Of a stretch of DNA of 64,000 nucleotides, positions 24,027 to 36,043 are shown in pieces. The notes beneath the pieces were generated by a model. That model had not been told where the DNA came from, did no database searches, and saw only the letters and a program-made list of their open reading frames with translations. The position numbers and the translations under genes are program-made. Numbering within the stretch: the stretch's first letter is position 1; every line of letters starts with the position of its first letter. Source of the DNA: Acetobacteraceae bacterium (GTDB taxonomy: Bacteria > Pseudomonadota > Alphaproteobacteria > Acetobacterales > Acetobacteraceae); contig PLSD01000052.1 in the NCBI GenBank assembly GCA_003164135.1, forward strand, positions 1 to 64,000, written 5' to 3'.

Positions 24027-25019
24027 TCAGTTGGGACGATCGGCGATGTGGGGCACATCGGAAAGATTTGCCGTCTCGCGCGTGACATAACTCGTCCGGC
24101 TGGGCGACTCAAAATAGATGCGCACAGCAATTTCCGCGAGCAGGCCGATCAAGATACTCATAACGCCCATCATGAAGGCCATGGCTGCCAGACCCGGCAG
24201 TGGCGTAAGAATCATCGACAGATGCTGAAAGATTTTCAGGTATAAAATGTCGAGCAACGTGAGGAACGAGATGAACAGCCATAACATGCCAAAGCCGCCA
24301 AACACATAGATAGGCTTGCCGATCCAGCGATCCAGAAAGCAGACGACCATCAGATCGAGTACCACTTTGAGAATCCGGACCATCCCATAATTGGAACGGC
24401 CGAAACGCCGGGGATGGTGCGTCACCTCGATTTCGGTAATACGCGCGCCGTACCATGACGCGTAGATCGGAATGAAGCGATGCATCTCACCGTAAAGTTT
24501 AACACGCCCGATGACTGAACGGCGATAGGCTTTCAGTGAACAGCCGTAATCATGCAGCCGTACGCCCGAAAGGCGAGAGATCCCCCAGTTGGCGCAACGG
24601 CTGAGAAAATTGCGCCGGATTGCCGCATCATGCCGCGTGCGCCGCCATCCGGAGACAACATCGAACCCTTCATCCAGTTTTGCCAACAGGCGCGGAATGT
24701 CCGTCGGATCGTTTTGGAGATCGGCGTCGATCGGAATGATGATGGCGCCTCGCGAATGGTCGAAGCCCGCCATCATCGCTGCGGTTTGACCGAAATTGCG
24801 AGCGAGGGTCACCGTTATCAGGCGAGGCTCGGCATTTGCCAACTCGGCGAGGACGTCAACCGACCCGTCTGAACTGCCGTCGTCAACGGCGATGATTTCA
24901 AATTCGCGGCCGGTGCTCTCCAGGACAGAAACCAGCTTTGGCAACAACAGGCGCAGCGAAGCTTCTTCATTATAAATGGGAACAATAACCGAAACAGAGC
25001 CACTTCTATCCATCGACAT
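24027..25019 (-). CDS. GT2 polyprenyl-phosphate glycosyltransferase (GtrB/ArnC-like)
   Basis: A 330-residue enzyme. The N-terminal GT-A fold shows VSVIVPIYNEEASL, IAVDDGSSDGSVDVL and the catalytic IPIDADLQNDPTDIP, and the middle has HDYGCSLKAYRR. Two membrane helices (about residues 232-258 and 275-300) end the protein, as in dolichol/undecaprenyl-phosphate sugar synthases. It should load a sugar onto undecaprenyl phosphate at the cytoplasmic face. GAGGAT lies in front of the ATG at 25019. It is the first gene of a six-gene leftward operon whose members all overlap or abut. No promoter is obvious in the 900 bp upstream. Confidence 0.9.
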   Translation of the reverse strand: MSMDRSGSVSVIVPIYNEEASLRLLLPKLVSVLESTGREFEIIAVDDGSSDGSVDVLAELANAEPRLITVTLARNFGQTAAMMAGFDHSRGAIIIPIDADLQNDPTDIPRLLAKLDEGFDVVSGWRRTRHDAAIRRNFLSRCANWGISRLSGVRLHDYGCSLKAYRRSVIGRVKLYGEMHRFIPIYASWYGARITEIEVTHHPRRFGRSNYGMVRILKVVLDLMVVCFLDRWIGKPIYVFGGFGMLWLFISFLTLLDILYLKIFQHLSMILTPLPGLAAMAFMMGVMSILIGLLAEIAVRIYFESPSRTSYVTRETANLSDVPHIADRPN

Positions 25020-25939
25020 TGATCCTCAAATTGCCCCCGCTCAAGTCAAGCCCAGCTTCACATTGTCTAGCCCAGACCCGGCCTGAGTGAAACATCCGCC
25101 TGCGATACCAGCATTCCTGCGTAAATGGCTACGTTCCACGGCGGCAGCCTTGCCTTGCAAAACCGAGATCGAACGTAGGGTTGGCCGGCTCCCGTTAATC
25201 TGGCCTAGCGAGGACATCGGGATAAAGGCGCACCTCCTAAGGCTAACGGCGCTCAGCAAGCCTAAACTGCATATGCTCCTCCTTGAGGCCACATGTTTTG
25301 TGGCACGCCTACCTACGACACCAAAACTCGTTCAATCATCCTTGTAACTATAGGAATAGACTTGCGAGTCGTTACAACCCACAGACGCACCCCAAAATGC
25401 GCGCGTAACCGGCGCCGGGCGACACCACCGAGCCAGCGTCCCTGGCCAACCGTACCACGGCATATATACATGCGGCCCGGCCCGGCTGGGCGCCGCTGCC
25501 TGCCAGGAAGTCCACCGTGACGCCCGCACCCATGGGGGCAAGCGCTCTGTGATCGGCGGCATGCGCGGCAGTTCGCGCCACCCCGCCGCTGATGGTGATC
25601 CCGGCGTTTTTGCTCCTTCGATGTGGCCAAAGCCATTGCCGGACCTGAGGCGAGTAAGGCAGGCGAGGCCAGCCGGTGCTGCGGGCAGCGGCGGAAGGCG
25701 TGTCGCAGGGGTCAAGCGTTCAGTGGTGGTCCAGGGTTTTCACCGGCAACTCGCCACAGCATCCGTTCGGAGCGTCAGTTGATGGAACAGCTCAACTATA
25801 AAGACTCACCAGTCCGCTCCCGGTCCGAAGCTCCCTAAAACCCCACCTCATTCCTTTTCCGACACAAACCCGCACAAATTGGGGTGCAAGCAAAAAATTA
25901 AGCCATACTAACAATACGTTATAACACAATCCTCACAAG
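25020..25939. other. Long intergenic stretch between the glycan operon and kdpE
   Basis: About 900 bp without a gene I can support. The ORFs here are short, overlapping on both strands and lack domains. The right end becomes AT-rich (25890-25935) just before the parS site. The promoter for the glycan operon must lie near 25020-25150. Confidence 0.55.
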
Positions 25940-25955
25940 TGTTTCACGTGAAACA
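25940..25955. other. parS: parS-type ParB binding site
   Basis: TGTTTCACGTGAAACA is a perfect 16-bp palindrome identical to the bacterial chromosomal parS consensus (TGTTNCACGTGAAACA). It extends to an 18-bp palindrome with one more G/C pair. It lies in the gap right after the kdpE stop codon. ParB binds such sites to load SMC and drive chromosome segregation, and they usually cluster near the replication origin. Confidence 0.85.
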
Positions 25956-25959
25956 CCCC

Positions 25960-26646
25960 CTACTCCCCATCCTGCAACCTGTACCCTACCCCCGGCTCGG
26001 TCAAAATCAGCGCCGCCAATTCCGCTCCCAGTTTGCGCCGCAATTGCCCGATATACACCCGCAAATACGCCACATCCTCGGTATGCGCCGGCCCCCAGAT
26101 CGCGGTCAGAATTTGCCGGTGCGTCAGCACCCGCCCCCGGTTGCGCGCCAGCAACAAAAGCAGCGCATGTTCGCGCTTCGTCAGCGGCAAAACCTCGCCA
26201 TCCAGCGTCACTTTATGCAACACCGTGTCAATCACCAGCCCACCAATCTCCACCGGCTTCTCCGCATTATCCTGCCGCAACCGGTGCCGCAGCGCGGTAC
26301 GAATCCGCGCCAGCAACTCGCCCAAACCAAAGGGCTTTTCCACGTAATCATCCGCCCCGGCATCCAGCGCCGCGATCTTATCCGTCTCCCTGTCCCGCGC
26401 GGACAAAATAATGATCGGCACATCGGTGAATTCCCGCAATTTCGCCAACACCTCATGCCCATCCATATCCGGCAGCCCAAGGTCCAGCAAAATCGCATCC
26501 GGCGCGCGCGAAGCCGCCAGCCGCAACGCCTCCTCCCCCCGCTCCGCCCGCACCGTCTCATAGCCCGACGCCGTCAGCGCCGGGGTCAAAAACCGGTGGA
26601 TCTGCGGCTCGTCATCCACCACCAATATCCGCCCGATGGGTATCAT
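25960..26646 (-). CDS. kdpE: KDP operon response regulator
   Basis: A 228-residue OmpR-class regulator. The receiver domain has the acidic pair VVDDEP, phospho-acceptor Asp in AILLDLGLPDMDG (about residue 55) and Lys in YVEKPFG. The winged-helix output domain contains TKREHALLLLLARNRGRVLT and VYIGQLRRKLG. It activates kdp transcription at low potassium or high osmolarity. The start overlaps the kdpD stop by 4 bp. The stop is followed after 4 bp by the parS site. Confidence 0.95.
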   Translation of the reverse strand: MIPIGRILVVDDEPQIHRFLTPALTASGYETVRAERGEEALRLAASRAPDAILLDLGLPDMDGHEVLAKLREFTDVPIIILSARDRETDKIAALDAGADDYVEKPFGLGELLARIRTALRHRLRQDNAEKPVEIGGLVIDTVLHKVTLDGEVLPLTKREHALLLLLARNRGRVLTHRQILTAIWGPAHTEDVAYLRVYIGQLRRKLGAELAALILTEPGVGYRLQDGE

Positions 26647-29264
26647 GCCGCCAGCAACTCCATACTAATAATCGTCCCCGGCAGCCCATCCGCCGGCAGA
26701 TCAAGCCGCGGACTCATCGCGCGAATGCTCCCGCCCATCGCCTCGGTAAACGCTTTCGCAATCGCCAACCCCAGTCCAGTCCCCGGCGCCACCCGATCGC
26801 CGCGCGTCGCACGGAAAAAGCTATCGAACACCGCACCCAATTCATCTGGCGGAATCCCCACCCCTTCGTCAGCCACATTCACCACCACTTTCGCCCCCTG
26901 GCGCAGCCCGGAGATCGAAATCCGGCTCCCCTCCGGCGCATATTTCACCGCATTATCCAGCACATTCACCAATACCTGCTCCAGCAGCGCCGGGTCCGCC
27001 AGCACATAAGCCGCCGCCTCCGCAATATTCACGCCGGCAAACATCGCCCCCGGCACGCGCGCAATCGCCGCCTCCACCACGTCCACCAACCTCAACCGTT
27101 CCCGCCGCGCGGAAATCTCGCCGGTCTCCACCCGCGCCATTTCCATGATATTGGCAAGGAATTTCGTCATCCGTTCGGTATTCTGCCCAATGCTCGCCAG
27201 CAAATCCGCCTGCGTCGCCGCATCCAGCGCCGCCCCGGCCCGCGCCAGCGTTTCCGCCGCCCCGCGAATGGCCGTCAGCGGCGTACGCAGATCATGGCTC
27301 AATGAAGACAGCAACGCGGTGCGCAGTTTCTGGTTATCCTGCTTGGCGGCACTCTGCGCGGCTTGTGTCGCCAGGCGCACCCGCTCCAGCGCCATCGCCG
27401 TCTGGTCCGCCAGCGTGCCAAGCGTCTGCACCAGCGGCGCCGATGGCACCGTTGCCAGCCTGGCCGCCAGCACGCCAATGGCTTTACCATCGGCCCGCAG
27501 CGGCATGAACCGCCACGCCACCGAAGGCAGCGTGCCCGTACCCATGCCGGTTTCCACATCATGCCGGAACGACCACTCCGCCGCCGCCCGCGCCGCCTCG
27601 TCCAGCGCGGTTCCCATTGGCACGCCCGCGACACTCTCCAAACCATTTTTGCCCGCCAGCAGCAGCATCCCCGCACTGGTCATCCCCGCCGCTTCCTCGG
27701 CGGCATCGCGCAGCACGTCGCTCAGTGTCGCCGCACGGGAAAGCCGCTGCCCGAACAGTGAAATGCGCCGCAGCGCCTCAATCCGCGCGCTCGCCGCCTG
27801 CGCCTCTAGCCGCACCTTGCCGGCCAGCGTGCCGGTGACCACGCCAACCAGCAAAAACACCGCCAGCGCCACTACATCCCGCGGGTCGCTGACTGAAAAT
27901 GTGTAGAGTGGCCGGAAGAAAAAGAAGTTCCACAACAAGAATCCCGCAACCGCCGTGGCCAACCCGGCATTGCGCCCATAGCGGCTCGCAATCCCCGCGA
28001 TCACCCCGGTGAAAACCAGTCCCATCGCCTCCTGTGGCAAGTAGCCATTCAGCGCCAGGCCCGCCAGCGTTACCATGGTAAGCGACGCCGCGGCGGCCTG
28101 ATAAGGCTCCCACCCAAACCCCGGCCGCGCCGCCGCCACGCGCGGCATGGGGGCGGCTGGCAGCGGCACGAAGTGCAACGTAAACGCCGTCGCCTTGCGC
28201 GTCAGCACCTCACCCAACCGCTGCCCAGGCCAGCGCCACCACCCCCGCCCTTGCCCCCGGCCAACGACAATGTGGGTGATATTCTGCCGCGCCGCGTAAT
28301 CCAGCACGGCGGTGAAAACATCCGGCGCGCTCACCGTCGCCACCGTACCGCCAAGCTGCACCATCAAATCCAGCGCGTGCTGCACGCGGGCATTGTCCTC
28401 GGCGCGCTCGACATGAAACGCCACCATCGGCGCGCGCAGGGCATCCGCCAGCCGTGCCGCGTGGCGCACCACGTTCTCGGAAGAAGCATCGGGCCCCACC
28501 AGCGCCAGCACGCGCTCCGAGGCCGGCCACGGCCCGGCGATGGCGCGTGAGCGCATGTAGCTGGCCACGTCCTTGTCCACCCGCTGCGCCACGCGCCGCA
28601 GCGCCATTTCGCGCAGCGCGCCAAGGTTGCCTTCGCGGAAAAACCCTTGCAGCGCGCGCCCCGCGACATCCGGGCGGTAGATTTTTCCCTCGGTGAGGCG
28701 GGTGCGCAGTTCTGCGGCGGGCAGGTCGATGAGTTCGATGTCGTCTGCCATATCCAGCACCGTGTCGGGGATCGTTTCGGCGACCCGCACGCCGGTGATG
28801 CGCGCCACTGGGTCGTTCAGGCTTTCCAGATGTTGTACGTTCACCGTGGTCCACACATCGATCCCCGCTTCCAGAACCTCCCGCACATCCTGCCAGCGTT
28901 TCGCATGGCGCAGGCCGGGGGCGTTCGTGTGGGCGAGTTCGTCGACCAGCAGGAGTTTGGGCCGGCGTTTCAGCGCGGCGTCGAGGTCGAATTCTTCCAG
29001 CACCTGGCCGCGATAGGGCACTTGCAGCCGGGGCAGCATTTCCAGCGTGCCAAACTCCTTCAGCGTACCTTCGCGCTCGTGCGTCTCGATCATCCCGGCG
29101 ACGACATCCACCCCGGCCTGGCGTTTGGCGTTGGCGGCGACCAGCATTTCCCAGGTTTTACCGACGCCCGGCGCGGCGCCAAGGAAAATTTTCAGATGGC
29201 CGCGAAGACCCCGCTGCATGCTTTCCAGCAATGCATCGGGGTCGGGCCGGGAGTCAGACGGCAT
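26643..29264 (-). CDS. kdpD: KDP operon sensor histidine kinase
   Basis: An 873-residue membrane sensor. The N-terminal KdpD domain has Walker A GAAPGVGKT (about residues 28-36) and LVDELAHTN. A universal-stress-protein domain follows (LALVGPDASSENVVRHAARL), then four membrane helices around 400-500, a GAF-like segment, and the kinase core with phospho-His in SLSHDLRTPLTAI, N-box VLDNAVKYAP and G boxes ADEGVGIP and GTGLGLAIAKA. It sits 38 bp after kdpC and completes a full-length two-component system. Confidence 0.95.
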   Translation of the reverse strand: MPSDSRPDPDALLESMQRGLRGHLKIFLGAAPGVGKTWEMLVAANAKRQAGVDVVAGMIETHEREGTLKEFGTLEMLPRLQVPYRGQVLEEFDLDAALKRRPKLLLVDELAHTNAPGLRHAKRWQDVREVLEAGIDVWTTVNVQHLESLNDPVARITGVRVAETIPDTVLDMADDIELIDLPAAELRTRLTEGKIYRPDVAGRALQGFFREGNLGALREMALRRVAQRVDKDVASYMRSRAIAGPWPASERVLALVGPDASSENVVRHAARLADALRAPMVAFHVERAEDNARVQHALDLMVQLGGTVATVSAPDVFTAVLDYAARQNITHIVVGRGQGRGWWRWPGQRLGEVLTRKATAFTLHFVPLPAAPMPRVAAARPGFGWEPYQAAAASLTMVTLAGLALNGYLPQEAMGLVFTGVIAGIASRYGRNAGLATAVAGFLLWNFFFFRPLYTFSVSDPRDVVALAVFLLVGVVTGTLAGKVRLEAQAASARIEALRRISLFGQRLSRAATLSDVLRDAAEEAAGMTSAGMLLLAGKNGLESVAGVPMGTALDEAARAAAEWSFRHDVETGMGTGTLPSVAWRFMPLRADGKAIGVLAARLATVPSAPLVQTLGTLADQTAMALERVRLATQAAQSAAKQDNQKLRTALLSSLSHDLRTPLTAIRGAAETLARAGAALDAATQADLLASIGQNTERMTKFLANIMEMARVETGEISARRERLRLVDVVEAAIARVPGAMFAGVNIAEAAAYVLADPALLEQVLVNVLDNAVKYAPEGSRISISGLRQGAKVVVNVADEGVGIPPDELGAVFDSFFRATRGDRVAPGTGLGLAIAKAFTEAMGGSIRAMSPRLDLPADGLPGTIISMELLAA

Positions 29265-29302
29265 GCATACTCATTTCAAGGGAGCCCCAGGACAGGGCTT
29301 CT

Positions 29303-29908
29303 TTATGACGCCGGCAATTGGTCCAGGGCAAGGTTCAATTGCAGGACGTTGACGTGATCCGTGCTGACGATGCCAAGGAAGGCGTGGTGGGTCATCTCGT
29401 TGACCAGATTAACCACCGTGGCGGCGGGAACCTTGCGGGCGGCGGCGACGGCGGGGGCCTGGCGCAGCGCGTTGGCCAGCGAGATATCCGGATCGACGCC
29501 CGAGCCCGAGGCGGTGACGGCATCGGCCGGGACCGGGCCGGGGCCGAACGCTTTGGTATAGGCCGCCACGCGCTGCTGGATGCTGGTAAGCAGCGCAGCG
29601 CTGGTGGGGCCGAGGTTGGAGGCGCCGGATTCACTGGCGTCATAGGGCGTGGCGATGCTGTTGCCCTTGGCATCCGTGCCCGTGAGCGCGGAGGGGCGGG
29701 GATGGAAATATTTTGGCGAGGTAAAGTTCTGCCCGATGATCGCGGAGCCTACGACCTGACCGTTGACGGTGATGAGGCTGCCGTTGGCCTGGGAAGGCAA
29801 CGCAAGCTGCATGACGCCGGTAAACGCCTCGGGCAGCAGAAACCCGGTGAGGATGGTGAAGAGGATGACCAGCGAGAGCGCGGGCCGGAGTTCTTTGAGG
29901 AGGAACAT
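29303..29908 (-). CDS. kdpC: Potassium-transporting ATPase subunit C
   Basis: A 201-residue subunit with one N-terminal membrane helix (LSLVILFTILTGFLLPEAFTG) and a periplasmic domain holding the conserved GQNFTSPKYFHPRPSA, GASNLGPTS and PADAVTASGSGVDPDIS blocks. KdpC stabilises the KdpFABC complex and raises ATP affinity of KdpB. It follows kdpB by 26 bp and ends shortly before kdpD. Confidence 0.95.
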   Translation of the reverse strand: MFLLKELRPALSLVILFTILTGFLLPEAFTGVMQLALPSQANGSLITVNGQVVGSAIIGQNFTSPKYFHPRPSALTGTDAKGNSIATPYDASESGASNLGPTSAALLTSIQQRVAAYTKAFGPGPVPADAVTASGSGVDPDISLANALRQAPAVAAARKVPAATVVNLVNEMTHHAFLGIVSTDHVNVLQLNLALDQLPAS

Positions 29909-29934
29909 GGGATTAATCCGTTACGAAAAGACGA

Positions 29935-31974
29935 TTACGAAAAAACGTGAAAAACGCCGAGGATAAGGTCGATGGCCTTGATCCCGGCAAAGGGCGCGAT
30001 GATGCCGCCGAGACCGTAGATGACTAGGTTGCGGCGCAGCAGTGCGGCAGCACCGATGGCGCGGAATTTCACGCCGCGCAGGGCCAGCGGCACCAGGGCG
30101 ACAATGATCAGCGCGTTGAAGATGACCGCCGAGAGAATGGCGGATTCCGGGCTGCGCAGTTGCATCACATTCAGCGCCGCGAGTTGCGGGTAGGTGCCGA
30201 CGAAAATCGCAGGCAAAATGGCGAAGTATTTAGAAATATCATTGGCGATGGAAAAGGTGGTGAGCGCGCCGCGCGTGATGAGCAACTGCTTGCCGATTTC
30301 CACGATCTCGATCAGCTTGGTCGGGTCGCTGTCGAGGTCCACCATATTGCCGGCTTCGCGCGCGGCCTGGGTGCCGGTTTGCATCGCCACGCCGACATCT
30401 GCTTGCGCCAGAGCCGGTGCGTCGTTGGTACCGTCGCCGCACATCGCGACGAGACGACCCTCGGCCTGAACCTTCCTGATGTAGTCAAGCTTGTTCTGCG
30501 GCGTGGCCTCGGCGATGTACTCATCAACGCCAGCCTCGGCGGCGATGGCGGCGGCGGTGATGCGGTTGTCACCCGTGACCATGACGGTGCGAATGCCCAT
30601 GCTGCGCAGTGCGGCGAAACGCTCCTTGATGCCGGGTTTGACGATGTCCTTCAGCTCGATGACGCCGAGCAGGCGGCCATTGGCGGCAACCGCCAGCGGG
30701 GTGGAGCCGGCGCGGCCGATGCGCGAGACGGCCTCGGTGAACAGCGCGTCGCCGGTGGTGTTCAGCGCGCTCAACACGGAATCCACGGCACCTTTGCGGT
30801 AGGAGCCGGCGCTGGAGTCCACGCCCGACATGCGCGTGTTGGCGCTGAAGGGGATGATTTCCGCGCCTTCCGGCATGACCGGAACGTAGCCATATTTTTC
30901 ACGCGCCAGAGCGAGGATGGAACGGCCTTCGGGTGTGTCGTCGCCCAGGCTGGCCAGCGCGCAGGCTTGCGCAAGGTCTTGTTCCGGCACGCCCGCCACC
31001 GGATAGAAGCCCGAAGCCATGCGGTTACCAAACGTGATGGTTCCGGTTTTATCCAGCAGCAGCGCGTCGACATCGCCAGCGGCTTCCACGGCCCGGCCGG
31101 AGGTGGCGACGACGTTGAAGCGCACCAGGCGGTCCATGCCGGCGATGCCGATGGCCGAGAGCAGCCCGCCGATGGTGGTGGGGATGAGGCACACCAGCAG
31201 CGCCGCCAGCACGGGGATGGAGAAATGCGTGCCGGAATATTGGCCGAAGCCGATCAGCGTGACCACCGCGATGAGAAAGATCAAAGTGAGACCAGCGAGA
31301 AGGATATTCAGCGCGATTTCGTTGGGGGTCTTGCGGCGTTCCGCACCTTCAACCAGTGCGATCATGCGGTCGAGGAAGGTCGAGCCGGCATCGGCGGTGA
31401 TGCGCACCACCAGCCAGTCGGAAACCACCATCGTGCCACCTGTTACCGCCGAGCGGTCGCCGCCGGCTTCGCGCACCACGGGGGCGGATTCACCGGTGAT
31501 CGCACTTTCGTTCACGCTGGCAACACCTTCGATGATTTCACCATCGGAGGGTACGAGATCGCCCGATTCCACCAGCACGATGTCGCCCTTGCGCAGGTCT
31601 TCCGCATGAGTGGGAATGTAGATCACGCGGTCTTGCGGGTTGGCCAGCAATTTCGCCATGGTATCTGAACGGGCGCGTTTCAGGCTTTCCGCCCTGGCGC
31701 GGCCACGGCCTTCCGCCACGGCCTCCGCGAAGGTGGCGAACAGCACGGTGAGCCACAGCCAGGCGGCTATGGTGATGGGAAAGGCAGCGGCCCTGCCGTT
31801 AAAGATGTCCTCGCCACCGACCACGCTGACCATGAGCGCGGTGACTTCGGTAAAAAAGATCACCGGGTTGCGCATCAGGGTAACGGGGTTGAGTTTGGCA
31901 AAGGAATCCAGTGCCGCGCGGCGCATAATGGTGGCGTCGAGCAGGGAAATCACTTCAGCATTTGCAGATGTCAT
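29935..31974 (-). CDS. kdpB: Potassium-transporting ATPase ATP-binding subunit
   Basis: A 679-residue P-type ATPase subunit. Motifs in order are the actuator [11 protein letters not shown] (with the regulatory Ser in TGES), the phosphorylation site [14 protein letters not shown], the nucleotide-binding [11 protein letters not shown], and the hinge [21 protein letters not shown]. Membrane helices are at the usual positions for KdpB. It hydrolyses ATP to drive potassium uptake through KdpA. Spacing to kdpA is 11 bp. AAAGG lies before the start. Confidence 0.97.
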
Positions 31975-31985
31975 TGTCGTAACCT

Positions 31986-33683
31986 TTAAAATGTCTTGCC
32001 GGCGTAGAGCAGATAGTGCTCGGCCAAGGGCCCAAGCGTATCAGCTGGCAGGTATTGCAGGCCGCCCAGGATGACGATGACGCCAATGAGCAGGCCGATG
32101 AACAGTGGACCAGTGGTGGGAAAAGTGCCGGCACTCTCAGGCAGCTTCGGTTTTGCCGCGAGCGAGCCGGCGATGGCCAGCACCGGGATCATGAAGGCGA
32201 AACGGCCGAACAGCATGGCCGCGCCGAGGCCAAAGTCCAGCAGCGGCGTGTCGGCGGAAAGGCCCGCGAAGGCGCTGCCGTTGTTCTCGGTGGCGGAGGT
32301 CCAGCCGTAGAGCATCTCCGAGAGACCATGCGGTCCGGCGTTTGCCAGCGAGGCCACGCCCGAGGCGGTGCATAGGGAAAACCCTGCGCCGGCCAGGATG
32401 AAAAGCGTGAGGATGAGCACAGCCAGCATGGCGAGTTTGATCTCCTTCGCCTGCACTTTTTTACCGAGATATTCCGGCGTGCGCCCGACCATGAGGCCCG
32501 CGACGAACACCGAGAGCAGAGCAAAGACTATGATAGTGTAGAAGCCCGAACCGACGCCGCCTGGTGTGACTTCACCAAGCTGCATGAGGAACAAAGGAAT
32601 GGCGCCGCCAAGCGGGGTGTAGCTGTCCGTAAAGCTGTCCACAGCACCGGTGGAGGTGCCGGTGGCGGAAACGTTGAAGGTGGCGGAAGCGGGAATGCCG
32701 AAGCGGACTTCCTTGCCTTCCCAATTGCCGCCCTGCGTCGCAACACCGGCGGCAATGTGCAGCGGGTTGCCCGCGGCCTCGGCGGCATAGGTGCCGACGC
32801 AGCCCAGTGCCAGGATGATGGCCATGGCGGCCATCAGCGCGCGGCCCTGGGCTTTTTCCTTGACCATGTGGCCGAAGGCGATGGGCAGCCCAAAGCCGAT
32901 GACCAGGAGGAGGAAGTTTTCCAGCAGGTTGGTCCAGGCGTTGGGGCTCTCGAACGGATGCCCCGAGTTGGCGTTGAAGAAGCCGCCGCCGTTGGTGCCG
33001 AGTTCCTTGATGGCTTCCTGGAAGGCGACCGGGCCGATGGCGATGGTCTGGGAACCGGCGTCGAGCGTGTGCGCGGTGATGAAGGGGCCAAAAGTTTGCG
33101 GCGCGCCGGCGATGACCAGCAGCGTGGCGGCAACGAGTGCCACCGGCAGCAGCAGATAAAGCGTGACGCGGGTGAGATCGGCATAGAAATTACCGATGGA
33201 TTTGAGACCGCCCGCGGTGAAGGCGCGCATGACCGCCGCCGCCGCCGCGATGCCCGCTGCCGCCGAGATGAACATGTGCACGGCGAGGCCGAGCATTTGC
33301 GCGCCGTTGGAGATTTGCGCCTCCGGCACGTAGGCCTGCCAGTTGGTGTTAGTGGTGAAGCTGGCCGCCGTGTTGAAGGCCAGGCGCGGCGACATCGCGG
33401 TGATGTGCTGCGGGTTGAACGGCAGATAATATTGCAGGCGCAGAATGGCGTAGAGCAGGAGGAAATGGATGACGCTGAGCAGGATTAGCGCGATCGCGTA
33501 GTCCTGCCAGCGCATCGCGCGCGCCGGGTCTACCCCGGCCAGTTTGTAAAAGCCGTTTTCCAGCGGAGCGAGAAACCGCACGCGGCCTTCGAAAATCGCC
33601 GCCATATAGCGTCCCAGCGGGAAGGCGCAGCCCAGCACCAGCGCAAACGTGAGCGCGATGTAAAGCAAACCCTGAATTGTCAT
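31986..33683 (-). CDS. kdpA: Potassium-transporting ATPase channel subunit
   Basis: A 565-residue, roughly ten-helix protein carrying the four selectivity-filter repeats of the KdpA family, visible as [29 protein letters not shown] and [13 protein letters not shown] among others. It begins [18 protein letters not shown] like many KdpA proteins. It forms the K+ intake path that works with KdpB. AAGGG precedes the ATG. kdpF is 12 bp upstream. Confidence 0.97.
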
Positions 33684-33695
33684 GGAATTTAACCC

Positions 33696-33782
33696 TTAAA
33701 AATCTTCCGGGCGCAGCATCGCCCAGACAAGATACACCAGCAGACCGGCGGAAATGACGCCGCCCAGATACAGATCGAACAT
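33696..33782 (-). CDS. kdpF: KdpF-like small subunit
   Basis: A 28-residue single-span peptide starting MFDLYLGGVISAGLLVYLVW and ending MLRPEDF. Position (directly before kdpA) and the L..YL..AL..PE.F pattern are those of KdpF, the small subunit that stabilises the KdpABC complex. AAAAGG lies in front of the ATG. Confidence 0.88.
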   Translation of the reverse strand: MFDLYLGGVISAGLLVYLVWAMLRPEDF

Positions 33783-33785
33783 AAT

Positions 33786-33869
33786 TTAAACCTTTTCGCA
33801 GGCCGGAACGTAGAGAATAAGCACGGCGAAAATCACCACGCCGAATGCGATCGCCACAAAGTCACCCAT
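33786..33869 (-). CDS. Small membrane peptide at the head of the kdp operon
   Basis: A 27-residue peptide, MGDFVAIAFGVVIFAVLILY then VPACEKV, ending 3 bp before the kdpF start. GGTGGTG precedes the ATG. It has one hydrophobic span and a short tail with a Cys. Comparable tiny proteins (often ending C(D/E)(R/K)(L/V)) occur before kdpF in some proteobacteria; I do not know an experimentally assigned role. Its position as the first gene of kdpFABCDE suggests a second small accessory subunit. Confidence 0.65.
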   Translation of the reverse strand: MGDFVAIAFGVVIFAVLILYVPACEKV

Positions 33870-33927
33870 AAGGCACCACCTTTCAGTCGGCTTGTGTGCG
33901 CTCAGGCGCGTAAAGCCGCGAGACGGA

Positions 33928-33944
33928 ACGAACAGCTAGTTCGT
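33928..33944. promoter_or_regulatory. Inverted repeat upstream of the kdp operon
   Basis: ACGAAC, five bases, then GTTCGT, a perfect 6-bp inverted repeat located about 60 bp upstream of the first kdp small gene. The position is right for an operator, and KdpE is the obvious candidate, but the sequence does not match a KdpE site that I know. Confidence 0.35.
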
Positions 33945-34010
33945 AAAGGCGGTATAAAGAAATTGTTGCGGGTTATAAAGGAAATAACGCCGCCGGCTTT
34001 TGCGTGGCTT

Positions 34011-34958
34011 TTACAGTGAAAGCAAGACGCGCAGGCGGTCGGCCATGGCCCGTTGGGCGACGGTGCTGGCGGGGGCAACACGCTCGAAGGCGTGCGGGGC
34101 GCCGGGGTGGACGTGGAGCTCGGTGGGGATGCCGGCTTGGGCGAGGCGGGCGGCGTAGGCGATGGATTCGTCGCGGAAAATGTCGAGCTCGCCGACTTCG
34201 ATATAGGCGGGGGCGAGGCCGGTTAGGGTTTCGGCGCGCGCCGGGGCGGCGCTGGAGGGAACGGCGGCGGTGCCCAACAGGTCGCCAAGCAGGGCGGACC
34301 AGCCGGTAAAATTGTTGTCGTGGGTCCAGGTGGCGAAGGGGGCGAGGGCTGGGTCTGGTTCCAGGTTACGGTCGTCGAGCATGGGGTAGATGAGGATTTG
34401 GCGGGCGAGCGGAAGGTTGCGGTCGCGGGCCAGCAAGGCGGTGCCGGCGGCTAAGCCGCCGCCGGCACTGTCGCCCATGACGGCGATGCGGGTTGGGTCG
34501 GCGCCGAGTTGGGCGGCGTGGGTTAGCAGCCATTGCAGGGCGGCGGCGCAGTCTTCCACCGGGGTGGGGTGCGGGTTTTCCGGGGCCAGGCGGTAGTCGG
34601 CGGCGAGCATGGAAACGCCGGTGGCGGAGACGTAGGCGGCGACCACGGGGTCGTAGATGTCGATATTGCCGCAGATCATGCCGCCGCCGTGCAGGTAGAG
34701 CACGGCCGGGCCGGGGGTGGCGCCGGTTTTTTCGTACCAGCGCAGGCGGAGGGAGGTGCCGTCCGGCGCGGGGCAGGTGTGGTTGGTGGTGGTCACGTCC
34801 GGGAAGGACGGGGCCAGGGTGCCAAGTGCTGCCATCAAGCCGTCGATATTGGCGCGCAGGGACGCCCAGTCGCCTCGGGCGGGCGGGGTGATCTCGCCCA
34901 TGGCGGCGGCGGCGGCTTGCAGGGCGGCGGCGATTTCGGGGTCGAATGCATGGGCCAT
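34011..34958 (-). CDS. Alpha/beta hydrolase, HSL (esterase) family
   Basis: A 315-residue cytoplasmic esterase. The oxyanion-hole motif is YLHGGGMICG (about residues 87-96) and the nucleophile elbow is GDSAGGGLA with Ser near residue 157. The Asp lies in DIFRDESIAYAARLA and the catalytic His in HPGAPHAFE close to the C-terminus. GGAGC precedes the ATG. It follows the ferredoxin-NADP reductase gene by 15 bp on the same strand. The natural substrate is unknown; HSL-family members usually hydrolyse short acyl esters. Confidence 0.88.
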   Translation of the reverse strand: MAHAFDPEIAAALQAAAAAMGEITPPARGDWASLRANIDGLMAALGTLAPSFPDVTTTNHTCPAPDGTSLRLRWYEKTGATPGPAVLYLHGGGMICGNIDIYDPVVAAYVSATGVSMLAADYRLAPENPHPTPVEDCAAALQWLLTHAAQLGADPTRIAVMGDSAGGGLAAGTALLARDRNLPLARQILIYPMLDDRNLEPDPALAPFATWTHDNNFTGWSALLGDLLGTAAVPSSAAPARAETLTGLAPAYIEVGELDIFRDESIAYAARLAQAGIPTELHVHPGAPHAFERVAPASTVAQRAMADRLRVLLSL

Positions 34959-34973
34959 GCGGAGCTCCAGGTT

Positions 34974-35984
34974 TTAGGTGGGGACGCCTTTGCTGGTGGA
35001 GTATTCAAAGTGCAGCGCCACGTCCGGGTAGACGATGGGGTGGATGGCGTGCGCGGCGACGGCGGCTTCGGCGAACCCTTGCAGGATGAGTTTGAGCTTG
35101 CCGGGGTAGGTGACGATGTCGCCCACGCCGAAAATGCCGGGCATGGTGGATTCCATGCGGGCCGGGTTGACCACGACATGGTGGCGCGCAAGCTCGAACG
35201 CCCAGTCTGCCAAGGGGCCAAGTTCCATGGACAGGCCGAAGAAGGGCAGCAGCACGTCAGCCGGGATTTTGCGCGTGGCGCCGTCGAGGTCGGCGACTTC
35301 GACGGCTTCCAGCACGCCTTTTGCGCCGTGCAGGGCGTGGAGCTGGTAGGGGATGACCATGTCGATTTCGCCACGGGCGGCGGCGGCGTCGAGCTGGGCG
35401 GCGCTCTCGGGCGCGGCACGGAATTTGGGGCGGCGGTGGATGACGTGAATGGATTTGGCGATGCCGTTCAAGGCCAGCGCCCAGTCGACCGCGGAGTCAC
35501 CGCCGCCGGCGATGACGACGCGTTTGCCGCGCAGGGCCTCGCGGCGTTTGACGTAATATTGCACGGCGCCAGTGGCCTCATAGGCGGGGAGGCCCTCCAG
35601 CGGCGGGCGGTTGGGGCCGAATGCGCCGGCACCGGCGGCGACGATGACGGCTTTGGCGTGGATTGTGTTGCCGAGGCTGGTGGTGAGGGTGAAGTCGCCC
35701 TGTGACCCGGTGCAGGTTTCCACCCGCTGACCGAGCAGTTTTTGCGGCGCGAAAGGGGCGATTTGCTGTTCCAAGCGCGCGATCAGCTCGGAGGCCTCGA
35801 TGCCGGGGTGGGCGGGAATGTCGTAGATTGGCTTTTCCGGGTAGAGGGCGGCGCACTGGCCGCCGGTTTCGCCCAGGGCGTCGATGAGGACGCAGGACAT
35901 TTTCAGCATCCCGCACTCAAACACCGCAAACAGGCCGGCCGGGCCGGCGCCAATGATCGCAACATCCGTTATCAGCTTTTCCAT
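34974..35984 (-). CDS. Ferredoxin/flavodoxin-NADP+ reductase (thioredoxin-reductase-like)
   Basis: A 336-residue FAD enzyme: dinucleotide-binding IIGAGPAGLFAVFECGM at the N-terminus, GETGGQCAALYPEKPIYDIP, the NADP site VVIAGGGDSAVDWALAL (about residues 150-166), and FGVGDIVTYPGKLKLILQGF at the C-terminus. The CxxC pair of true thioredoxin reductases is absent, which places it with the TrxR-like ferredoxin-NADP reductases. AGGGGC lies in front of the ATG at 35984; the in-frame start further upstream is less likely. It is transcribed divergently from tsaE with a 59-bp gap. Confidence 0.9.
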   Translation of the reverse strand: MEKLITDVAIIGAGPAGLFAVFECGMLKMSCVLIDALGETGGQCAALYPEKPIYDIPAHPGIEASELIARLEQQIAPFAPQKLLGQRVETCTGSQGDFTLTTSLGNTIHAKAVIVAAGAGAFGPNRPPLEGLPAYEATGAVQYYVKRREALRGKRVVIAGGGDSAVDWALALNGIAKSIHVIHRRPKFRAAPESAAQLDAAAARGEIDMVIPYQLHALHGAKGVLEAVEVADLDGATRKIPADVLLPFFGLSMELGPLADWAFELARHHVVVNPARMESTMPGIFGVGDIVTYPGKLKLILQGFAEAAVAAHAIHPIVYPDVALHFEYSTSKGVPT

Positions 35985-36043
35985 GCCCCTGGCTTTGCCG
36001 CACCGCCCTTCCACAATCAAGCGCATGCCCTAAAAAGGGTGCC

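Follow-up and report, generated by a model that had tools for sequence, protein, structure and literature searches.

In other species ParB is known to nucleate at parS; the table rows covered here give 2–21 parS sites per species, all or most of them in the ori domain, e.g., eight of ten in Bacillus subtilis (PMC7022226). For Pseudomonas aeruginosa ten parS sites are reported, four of them near oriC (PMC9178275). In general, parS is treated as nearly invariant and origin-bound. The parS palindrome described here lies in a stretch of 64,000 nucleotides (the window) from an Acetobacteraceae bacterium (contig PLSD01000052.1), whose genus we take to be Acidocella on grounds that include the nearest named relatives of its KdpE. 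Its system resembles the chromosomal ParABS of Caulobacter crescentus and B. subtilis in the 16-bp palindrome, in a ParB that by alignment has a GERRWRA motif and a helix-turn-helix (HTH) region, and in the arrangement of parA-parB behind a gidB-like gene with parS behind parB. It differs from them in that about 36 copies of the site are scattered over the genome within a fixed composite module, and in that the outer bases of the palindrome switch between sister species. In the open-access literature we found no report on parS in Acidocella or other Acetobacteraceae and none on a dispersed intergenic parS repeat.

The 16-mer TGTTTCACGTGAAACA at window positions 25940–25955 (assigned to neither strand) is a perfect palindrome that matches the parS consensus TGTTNCACGTGNAACA exactly and is set 4 bp from the stop codon of a kdpE-like gene. 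The exact match and the place just behind kdpE agree with a preliminary description of the window. When the window was scanned for TGTTNCACGTGAAACA with up to three mismatches, only this locus was found, with 0 mismatches (counted on both strands). In 100 shuffled sequences the same scan gave a mean of 0.79 matches, and two or more in 19 of the 100, so that the rarity of the site rests on the exactness of its match. What the preliminary description missed is that the 92 bp to the left of the palindrome are part of the same conserved unit. Together with a 92-bp left module and CCCC, the parS of the window forms a composite element of about 112 bp, at one end of which it stands, with the consensus TC[AG]TT..TTTTCCGACACAAACCCGCACAAATTGGGGTGCAAG, A/T tract, ACTAACA-NNN-[TG]GTTA, linker, CCTCACAA, parS, CCCC. 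On the plus strand of the window the module (25848–25939) comprises the left block TCATTCCTTTTCCGACACAAACCCGCACAAATTGGGGTGCAAG (25848–25890), which contains GCAC-N8-GTGC, the A/T tract AAAAAATTAA (25892–25901), the dyad TAAC-N5-GTTA (25909–25921, without strand), which by motif scan is the only one in the window, and CCTCACAA adjoining parS (25931–25938). The CCCC at the right edge (25956–25959, plus strand) is strong in the genome of the window and weaker across all six genomes that carry the element.

These limits follow from conservation profiles of 30 copies from the window's genome (G000), of 54 copies from six genomes, and of 115 copies from the six that carry the element (G000, G009, G011, G023, G002, and G016). 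In the 30 copies in register from G000, information is mostly 1–2 bits per base from −92 to +19 of parS, with dips at the middle of the dyad and at the linker. Outside the element it is about 0.1–0.3 bit per base, falling to about 0.1 beyond −120 on the left and about +40 on the right. The 115 copies are what remained of 118 copies in register after removal of G000:C76, G009:C24, and G009:C65; outside the register were G000:C18:156283, which is cut by a contig end, G002:C56, G016:C4, and G016:C277, and the partial element G016:C144 scored too low to be aligned. The 14-bp parS core GYTYCACGTGRARC is exact at its fixed offset in 101 of the 115 copies. The other 14 comprise six cores with CCCGTG, one with CATGTG, one with a change of the second base, two with one change in the right half, one with an N, one without palindrome, and two split by small palindromic insertions (L316 on G002:C23 and L324 on G002:C28).

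The genome of the window is an assembly of 4.415 Mb in 137 contigs, estimated to be 100% complete. It contains 16 exact copies of TGTTTCACGTGAAACA on 14 contigs (0 with a reversed-pattern control), and each of the 15 away from parB carries the 92-bp module at an identical offset. When the left block alone served as query, with up to two mismatches allowed, 35 copies were found, to which one on C76, cut by a contig end, has to be added; these 36 copies lie on 26 contigs. No two copies on the same contig are less than 20 kb apart (P of 0.008 for the minimum and of 0.044 for the median distance, against uniform placement). Copies on the same contig face both ways (−,+,− on C31 and +,−,− on C90), and a strand-polar replication signal was therefore dropped as a candidate; a GC-skew bias is confounded by gene direction. 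The elements sit mostly close behind genes, and the proteins encoded next to them look unrelated by eye.

On contig C55 of the same genome parA and parB are adjacent to each other, beside a gene that we take from its sequence and position to be gidB-like. The 16-mer of the window recurs there 11 bp behind the stop codon of parB, in this case without the 92-bp module. Because there are 16 exact copies, one of them directly behind parB, the 16-mer is, as judged from sequence, very likely a ParB site. Six further matches to the ParB family were found in G000. Two of them, G000:C52:42852 and G000:C47:2955 (L006 and L007), are located beside frames that by eye resemble plasmid repABC genes, and may belong to two secondary replicons.

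The sites change together with ParB. In 36 other genomes of the genus TGTTTCACGTGAAACA does not occur, though five of these have a ParB that is 91–94% identical to that of G000. In the five relatives the site behind parB is TGCTTCACGTGAAGCA (G009) or TGCTCCACGTGGAGCA (G011, G023, G002, and G016), and in other genomes of the genus it has halves such as TGTTCC, TGTGTC, and CGTTAC. When dispersed elements whose core is intact are compared, the five relatives are uniform at two positions, all 68 copies having C at base 3 and G at base 14, whereas of the 34 copies of G000 18 have T at base 3 and 30 have A at base 14. At base 5, T is found in 11 of the 14 G009 copies, and C in 53 of the 54 that come from G011, G023, G002, and G016. 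G000, being mixed at this base (19 T, 15 C), looks part-way through the change. The parB-linked site, which is without the module, has changed in the same way as the dispersed sites. It is enclosed by a longer palindrome, the arms of which also change together (GGGGGG/CCCCCC, GGGGTA/TACCCC).

On the protein side, residue 192 of ParB (K or R) tracks base 5 of parS in 29 of 30 genomes, for two of which (G010 and G032) base 5 was taken from a less regular site: of the 16 genomes with C at base 5, 15 have K, and the 14 genomes with T or A at this base all have R. In a tree calculated from ParB minus the HTH region, with Caulobacter added, seven changes of base 5 are needed, and well-supported branches force at least three for the C state. 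Within the ParB segment GKSRVHINNTLRVLKLP the sole difference between G000 and G009 is at residue 162 (V to G). The Caulobacter equivalent of residue 192 is R204, which has been named as a parS contact (PMC7383237). In the divergence of ParB and Noc a few residues at the DNA interface shift the specificity of the ParB fold, namely those at positions 173, 179, 184, and 201, with R204 and N178 as conserved contacts (Jalal et al., 2020; PMC7383237). In the present case, by contrast, the equivalents of 174, 177, 178, and 204 vary within one genus together with bases 3 and 5 of parS. Our literature search found no report of a within-genus re-coding of parS. Two further variations were seen behind parB: G010 and G032 (L165 and L166) have GGGTACACGTGTAACA, a parS that is asymmetric and whose base 5 is A, and a ParB with Q at the position of Caulobacter N178, and genomes of the TGTTCC type (L150, L151, L153, L157, L158, L160, and L163) have two to four tandem parS in steps of 35–48 bp directly behind parB.

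The second conserved feature of the element is the dyad TAAC-N5-GTTA, which recurs at a constant position (−31) in 76 of the 115 copies, and in 88 if one mismatch is allowed. The base before TAAC is mostly C (77 of 115). The pairing of dyad and parS extends beyond the six genomes. In eight other members of the genus the dyad lies within about 65 bp of 18 of the 25 parS or near-parS sites listed away from parB, which are five fetched loci and 20 chosen places (L028 and L031, both beside parB, as well as L029 and L033 were left out). Exact matches to TGTTNCACGTGNAACA account for 11 of the 25 sites, and the dyad accompanies 10 of these; of the 14 sites that deviate at one base, 8 have it. It stands on either side and at a few preferred distances. 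The exact site that is without a dyad lies at a distance of 1.6 kb from parB. Among orthologues of the 18 sites the five middle bases vary, and TAAC and GTTA are constant. As background, 3 dyads were counted in 126,433 bp. Within 587 kb of G000, 23 of 25 dyads are found at most 70 bp from parS, and control dyads away from parS number 0–4; the corresponding counts are 5 of 6 in G009, 7 of 8 in G016, 4 of 4 in G011, and 2 of 3 in G023, giving 41 of 46 for the five genomes in regions all of which were picked around parS. In the 30 parB loci that were scanned, no dyad was reported at 120 bp or less from a parS.

CtrA sites take the form TTAA-N7-TTAA. The full CtrA site in alphaproteobacteria is given as TTAAC-N5-GTTAAC (PMC7232146); the dyad agrees with it in the core TAAC-N5-GTTA and in the spacing, and differs in the outer bases. 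The core is also shared by the site ATAAC-N5-GTTAT of the LysR-type regulator PcaQ (PMC3572157). A motif scan for CtrA itself, limited to the fetched loci, found none in them. Some plasmid centromeres have an accessory protein, as P1 parS has IHF. The element is like P1 parS with IHF in that a ParB site is joined to a second architectural or regulatory site, and unlike it in being chromosomal and in having many copies; the symmetric dyad in other genomes moreover argues against IHF. The IHF consensus WATCARNNNNTTR fits 4 of the 115 copies strictly and 89 when A is allowed at base 3, and IHF at the dyad was dropped as a candidate because CTAAC-N5-GTTAG stands beside parS in other genomes.

Among 38 genomes of the genus, the left block was found in six. 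With up to two mismatches G009 has 16 copies, G011 19, G023 20, and G016 14, and with up to three mismatches G002 has at least 16. The remaining 32 genomes show 0–3 matches at up to three mismatches, as compared with 0–4 for the reversed control; a strongly diverged left block would be missed by this search. When copies are linked by the gene on the parS side, they form 45 groups, 22 of which span two or more genomes. Four added links bring the groups that join G000 with another species, with the core intact, to 19, these counts being approximate since one group fuses the loci C133 and C56 via similar right flanks. In 60 orthologous pairs the positions that differ are 11 of 360 in CACGTG, 431 of 2580 in the left block, 470 of 1794 in the tract plus dyad, 201 of 540 in the CCTCACAA part, and 289 of 540 in the linker, as against 2632 of 3618 in the left and 2176 of 3600 in the right ungapped flanks. 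Blocks and spacing have been preserved and the linker has drifted, a pattern not expected from recent duplication of whole elements.

The explanation that we favour, and which we hold to be reasonably probable, is that the composite parS elements of about 112 bp are dispersed ParB-loading stations with a partner protein on the dyad. ParB binding, the partner, and the station role are all inferred from sequence: a second protein at the dyad is suggested by the near-exclusive pairing together with the fixed register, and a role along the chromosome arms by the scatter of the copies. ParB-CTP would load at parS as in other bacteria. At the dispersed sites loading or retention would depend on a second sequence-specific protein on the dyad, with the invariant spacing holding this putative partner at a fixed distance from parS. 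The elements could thus be satellite stations along the arms for the loading of ParB, perhaps also of condensin, and the plain parS behind parB would serve the origin. A change in the recognition surface of ParB would then have led the sites to change along with it. One may go further and see in the elements a satellite centromere-like network, in which a CtrA-type cell-cycle regulator on the dyad licenses ParB loading and in which parS has been re-coded together with ParB several times within the genus. In this extended form the proposal is tentative and, in our estimate, unlikely; if it were true, ParB/condensin stations along the arms would be switched with the cell cycle.

It should be noted that several observations weigh against dispersed loading stations. 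A station role across the whole genome would be unusual: the ori domain holds most parS sites of the species reviewed (PMC7022226), and P. aeruginosa requires parS inside a region of about 650 kb around oriC (PMC5098823). The G000 assembly has an estimated contamination of 5.43%, and the even spacing of its copies was a post hoc observation. The dyad is inexact in 39 of the 115 copies, and the 18 dyad-positive sites outside the six genomes amount, by our reading of shared flanks, to about 11 independent loci. Outer bases are altered in many copies of G011, G023, and G002, and CCCGTG replaces CACGTG in six of these; some copies of these three genomes may be inactive. In two copies (G009:C65 and G011:C65) the left block is without a palindrome at its place. 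Finally, G020 violates the rule for residue 192.

The confinement of the left block to six genomes also fits a lineage-specific intergenic repeat, similar to repetitive extragenic palindromes or miniature inverted-repeat transposable elements, that spread in the ancestor of the six species with parS at one end. ParB might bind to such a repeat, and the dispersed copies would have no role in segregation. In favour of a repeat are the control-level counts in the other 32 genomes, the seven genomes besides G000 with one left-block match each (at most two mismatches) in a sample of 200 genomes of the family, the copy numbers of some 14–36 per genome, and the many copies of G000 for which no orthologue was found (15 of 35, those joined later aside), which is a further point against loading stations. 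We nevertheless regard it as rather improbable. Between the two ends of the element there is no inverted repeat with arms of 8 bp or more, the palindrome of parS itself being the only inverted repeat reported for the window copy, and no relative was found in IMG/VR (exact 20-mer), plasmids, or phages, the matches to phages being stretches of 21 bp; a mobile or viral origin was accordingly dropped as a candidate. Furthermore, copies stand at orthologous loci, where spacers drift and blocks and register are kept, and parS is paired with the dyad also in genomes without the left block. A different view is that ParB and its partner act locally behind genes, as terminator, insulator, or regulator, rather than in segregation. 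The longest frame on the opposite strand ends at most 30 bp from parS in 23 of 35 copies of G000, the parB-linked site lies inside a longer palindrome with co-changing arms, and two hairpins, with a z of about −22 against shuffled columns, emerge when 40 of 113 copies are folded as an alignment of the gene-sense strand. This z says little, however, since column shuffling destroys any palindrome. Neither hairpin is directly followed by a run of T, the varied pair −66/−55 of the second stem is mostly uncompensated, Rfam has no match in the window from 25000 to 26700 at E up to 1, and the neighbouring proteins, as mentioned, look unrelated. A local role thus appears doubtful to us, and an RNA element was rejected as a candidate on account of the missing Rfam match and of hairpins that largely restate the palindromes.

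The preliminary description had read the 16-mer as parS and had taken it as a possible sign of origin proximity. The first part is supported by the 16 exact copies and by the parA-parB locus with the same 16-mer 11 bp behind parB. The exact consensus and the parAB locus would also be in keeping with an ordinary origin-proximal parS. The second part is unsupported: the contigs carrying the 36 copies make up 42% of the assembly, where simulation predicts 40% (32–47%) for uniform scatter and 17% (14–20%) for confinement to 20% of the genome, and it has to be held against this test that the sizes of 46 contigs (1.0 Mb in total) were simulated. The 36 copies are as expected for genome-wide scatter. 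In five single-contig genomes of the family, orthologues of the genes that carry or flank elements range from beside parB to opposite parB. Those within 0.2 half-genome of parB number 5 of 11 and 4 of 10 in two of the five (about 40–45%), but 0 of 12, 1 of 10, and 1 of 11 in the other three. Together with the fixed composite module, this makes an ordinary origin-proximal site very improbable. Equally improbable is that, in place of the chromosomal ParB, a different protein recognizes the palindrome, such as a ParB paralogue or a regulator binding CACGTG. The six further ParB-family matches, two of them beside the repABC-like frames, would provide candidates, but the parB-linked site changes in step with the dispersed sites and the contact residues of ParB follow.

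A composite and scattered parS with its own dyad points to a putative partner of ParB. One genus furthermore offers a natural series of joint changes in parS and ParB at many loci, from which predictions relating residues to bases can be derived. A single perfect parS should be used with caution as evidence of origin proximity.

The gene next to the window element is the kdpE-like gene (25960–26646, minus strand), which ends 4 bp from parS, has a response regulator domain by Pfam, and has KdpE as its best NCBIfam model, below the cut-off. Its neighbours are kdpD, kdpC, and an E1-E2 ATPase at the place of kdpB (all by Pfam) and kdpA (by NCBIfam). Alignment with G023:C7 showed that the kdpE, kdpD, kdpC, kdpB, and kdpA genes and a gene for an alpha/beta hydrolase (25966–34980, no strand assigned) are without counterpart at the matching locus. 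G023:C7 aligns to window 44974–34981 with 79.5% over 10,009 columns and, five bases after that block, resumes at 25965–25848 with 76.7% over 120 columns. The element of G023 therefore stands directly behind the oxidoreductase gene, which in the window is a thioredoxin-reductase-like gene (34974–36026, minus strand, below the NCBIfam cut-off), and the kdp genes and the hydrolase gene intervene in G000 but not in G023. The difference is an insertion in one genome or a loss in the other. A tie of parS to kdpE was rejected, as none of 80 kdpE loci of other genomes matches TGTTNCACGTGNAACA with up to two mismatches, and no parS palindrome was found in the five kdpE loci of genus members that were scanned (six were fetched; L228 of G002 was left out).

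To the left of parS, the open reading frame (ORF) list has only frames of at most 127 amino acids between 25020 and 25939. The approximately 830 bp left of the element (25020–25847), with short overlapping frames only, may hold a decayed gene. A mechanical ORF on the plus strand (25939–27009, start MFHVKH) reads through the parS palindrome antisense to the kdpE-like gene. A further element copy, G000:C20:77787 (L118), adjoins what by eye is the decayed 3′ end of a kdpE, which suggests an older or duplicated kdp locus.
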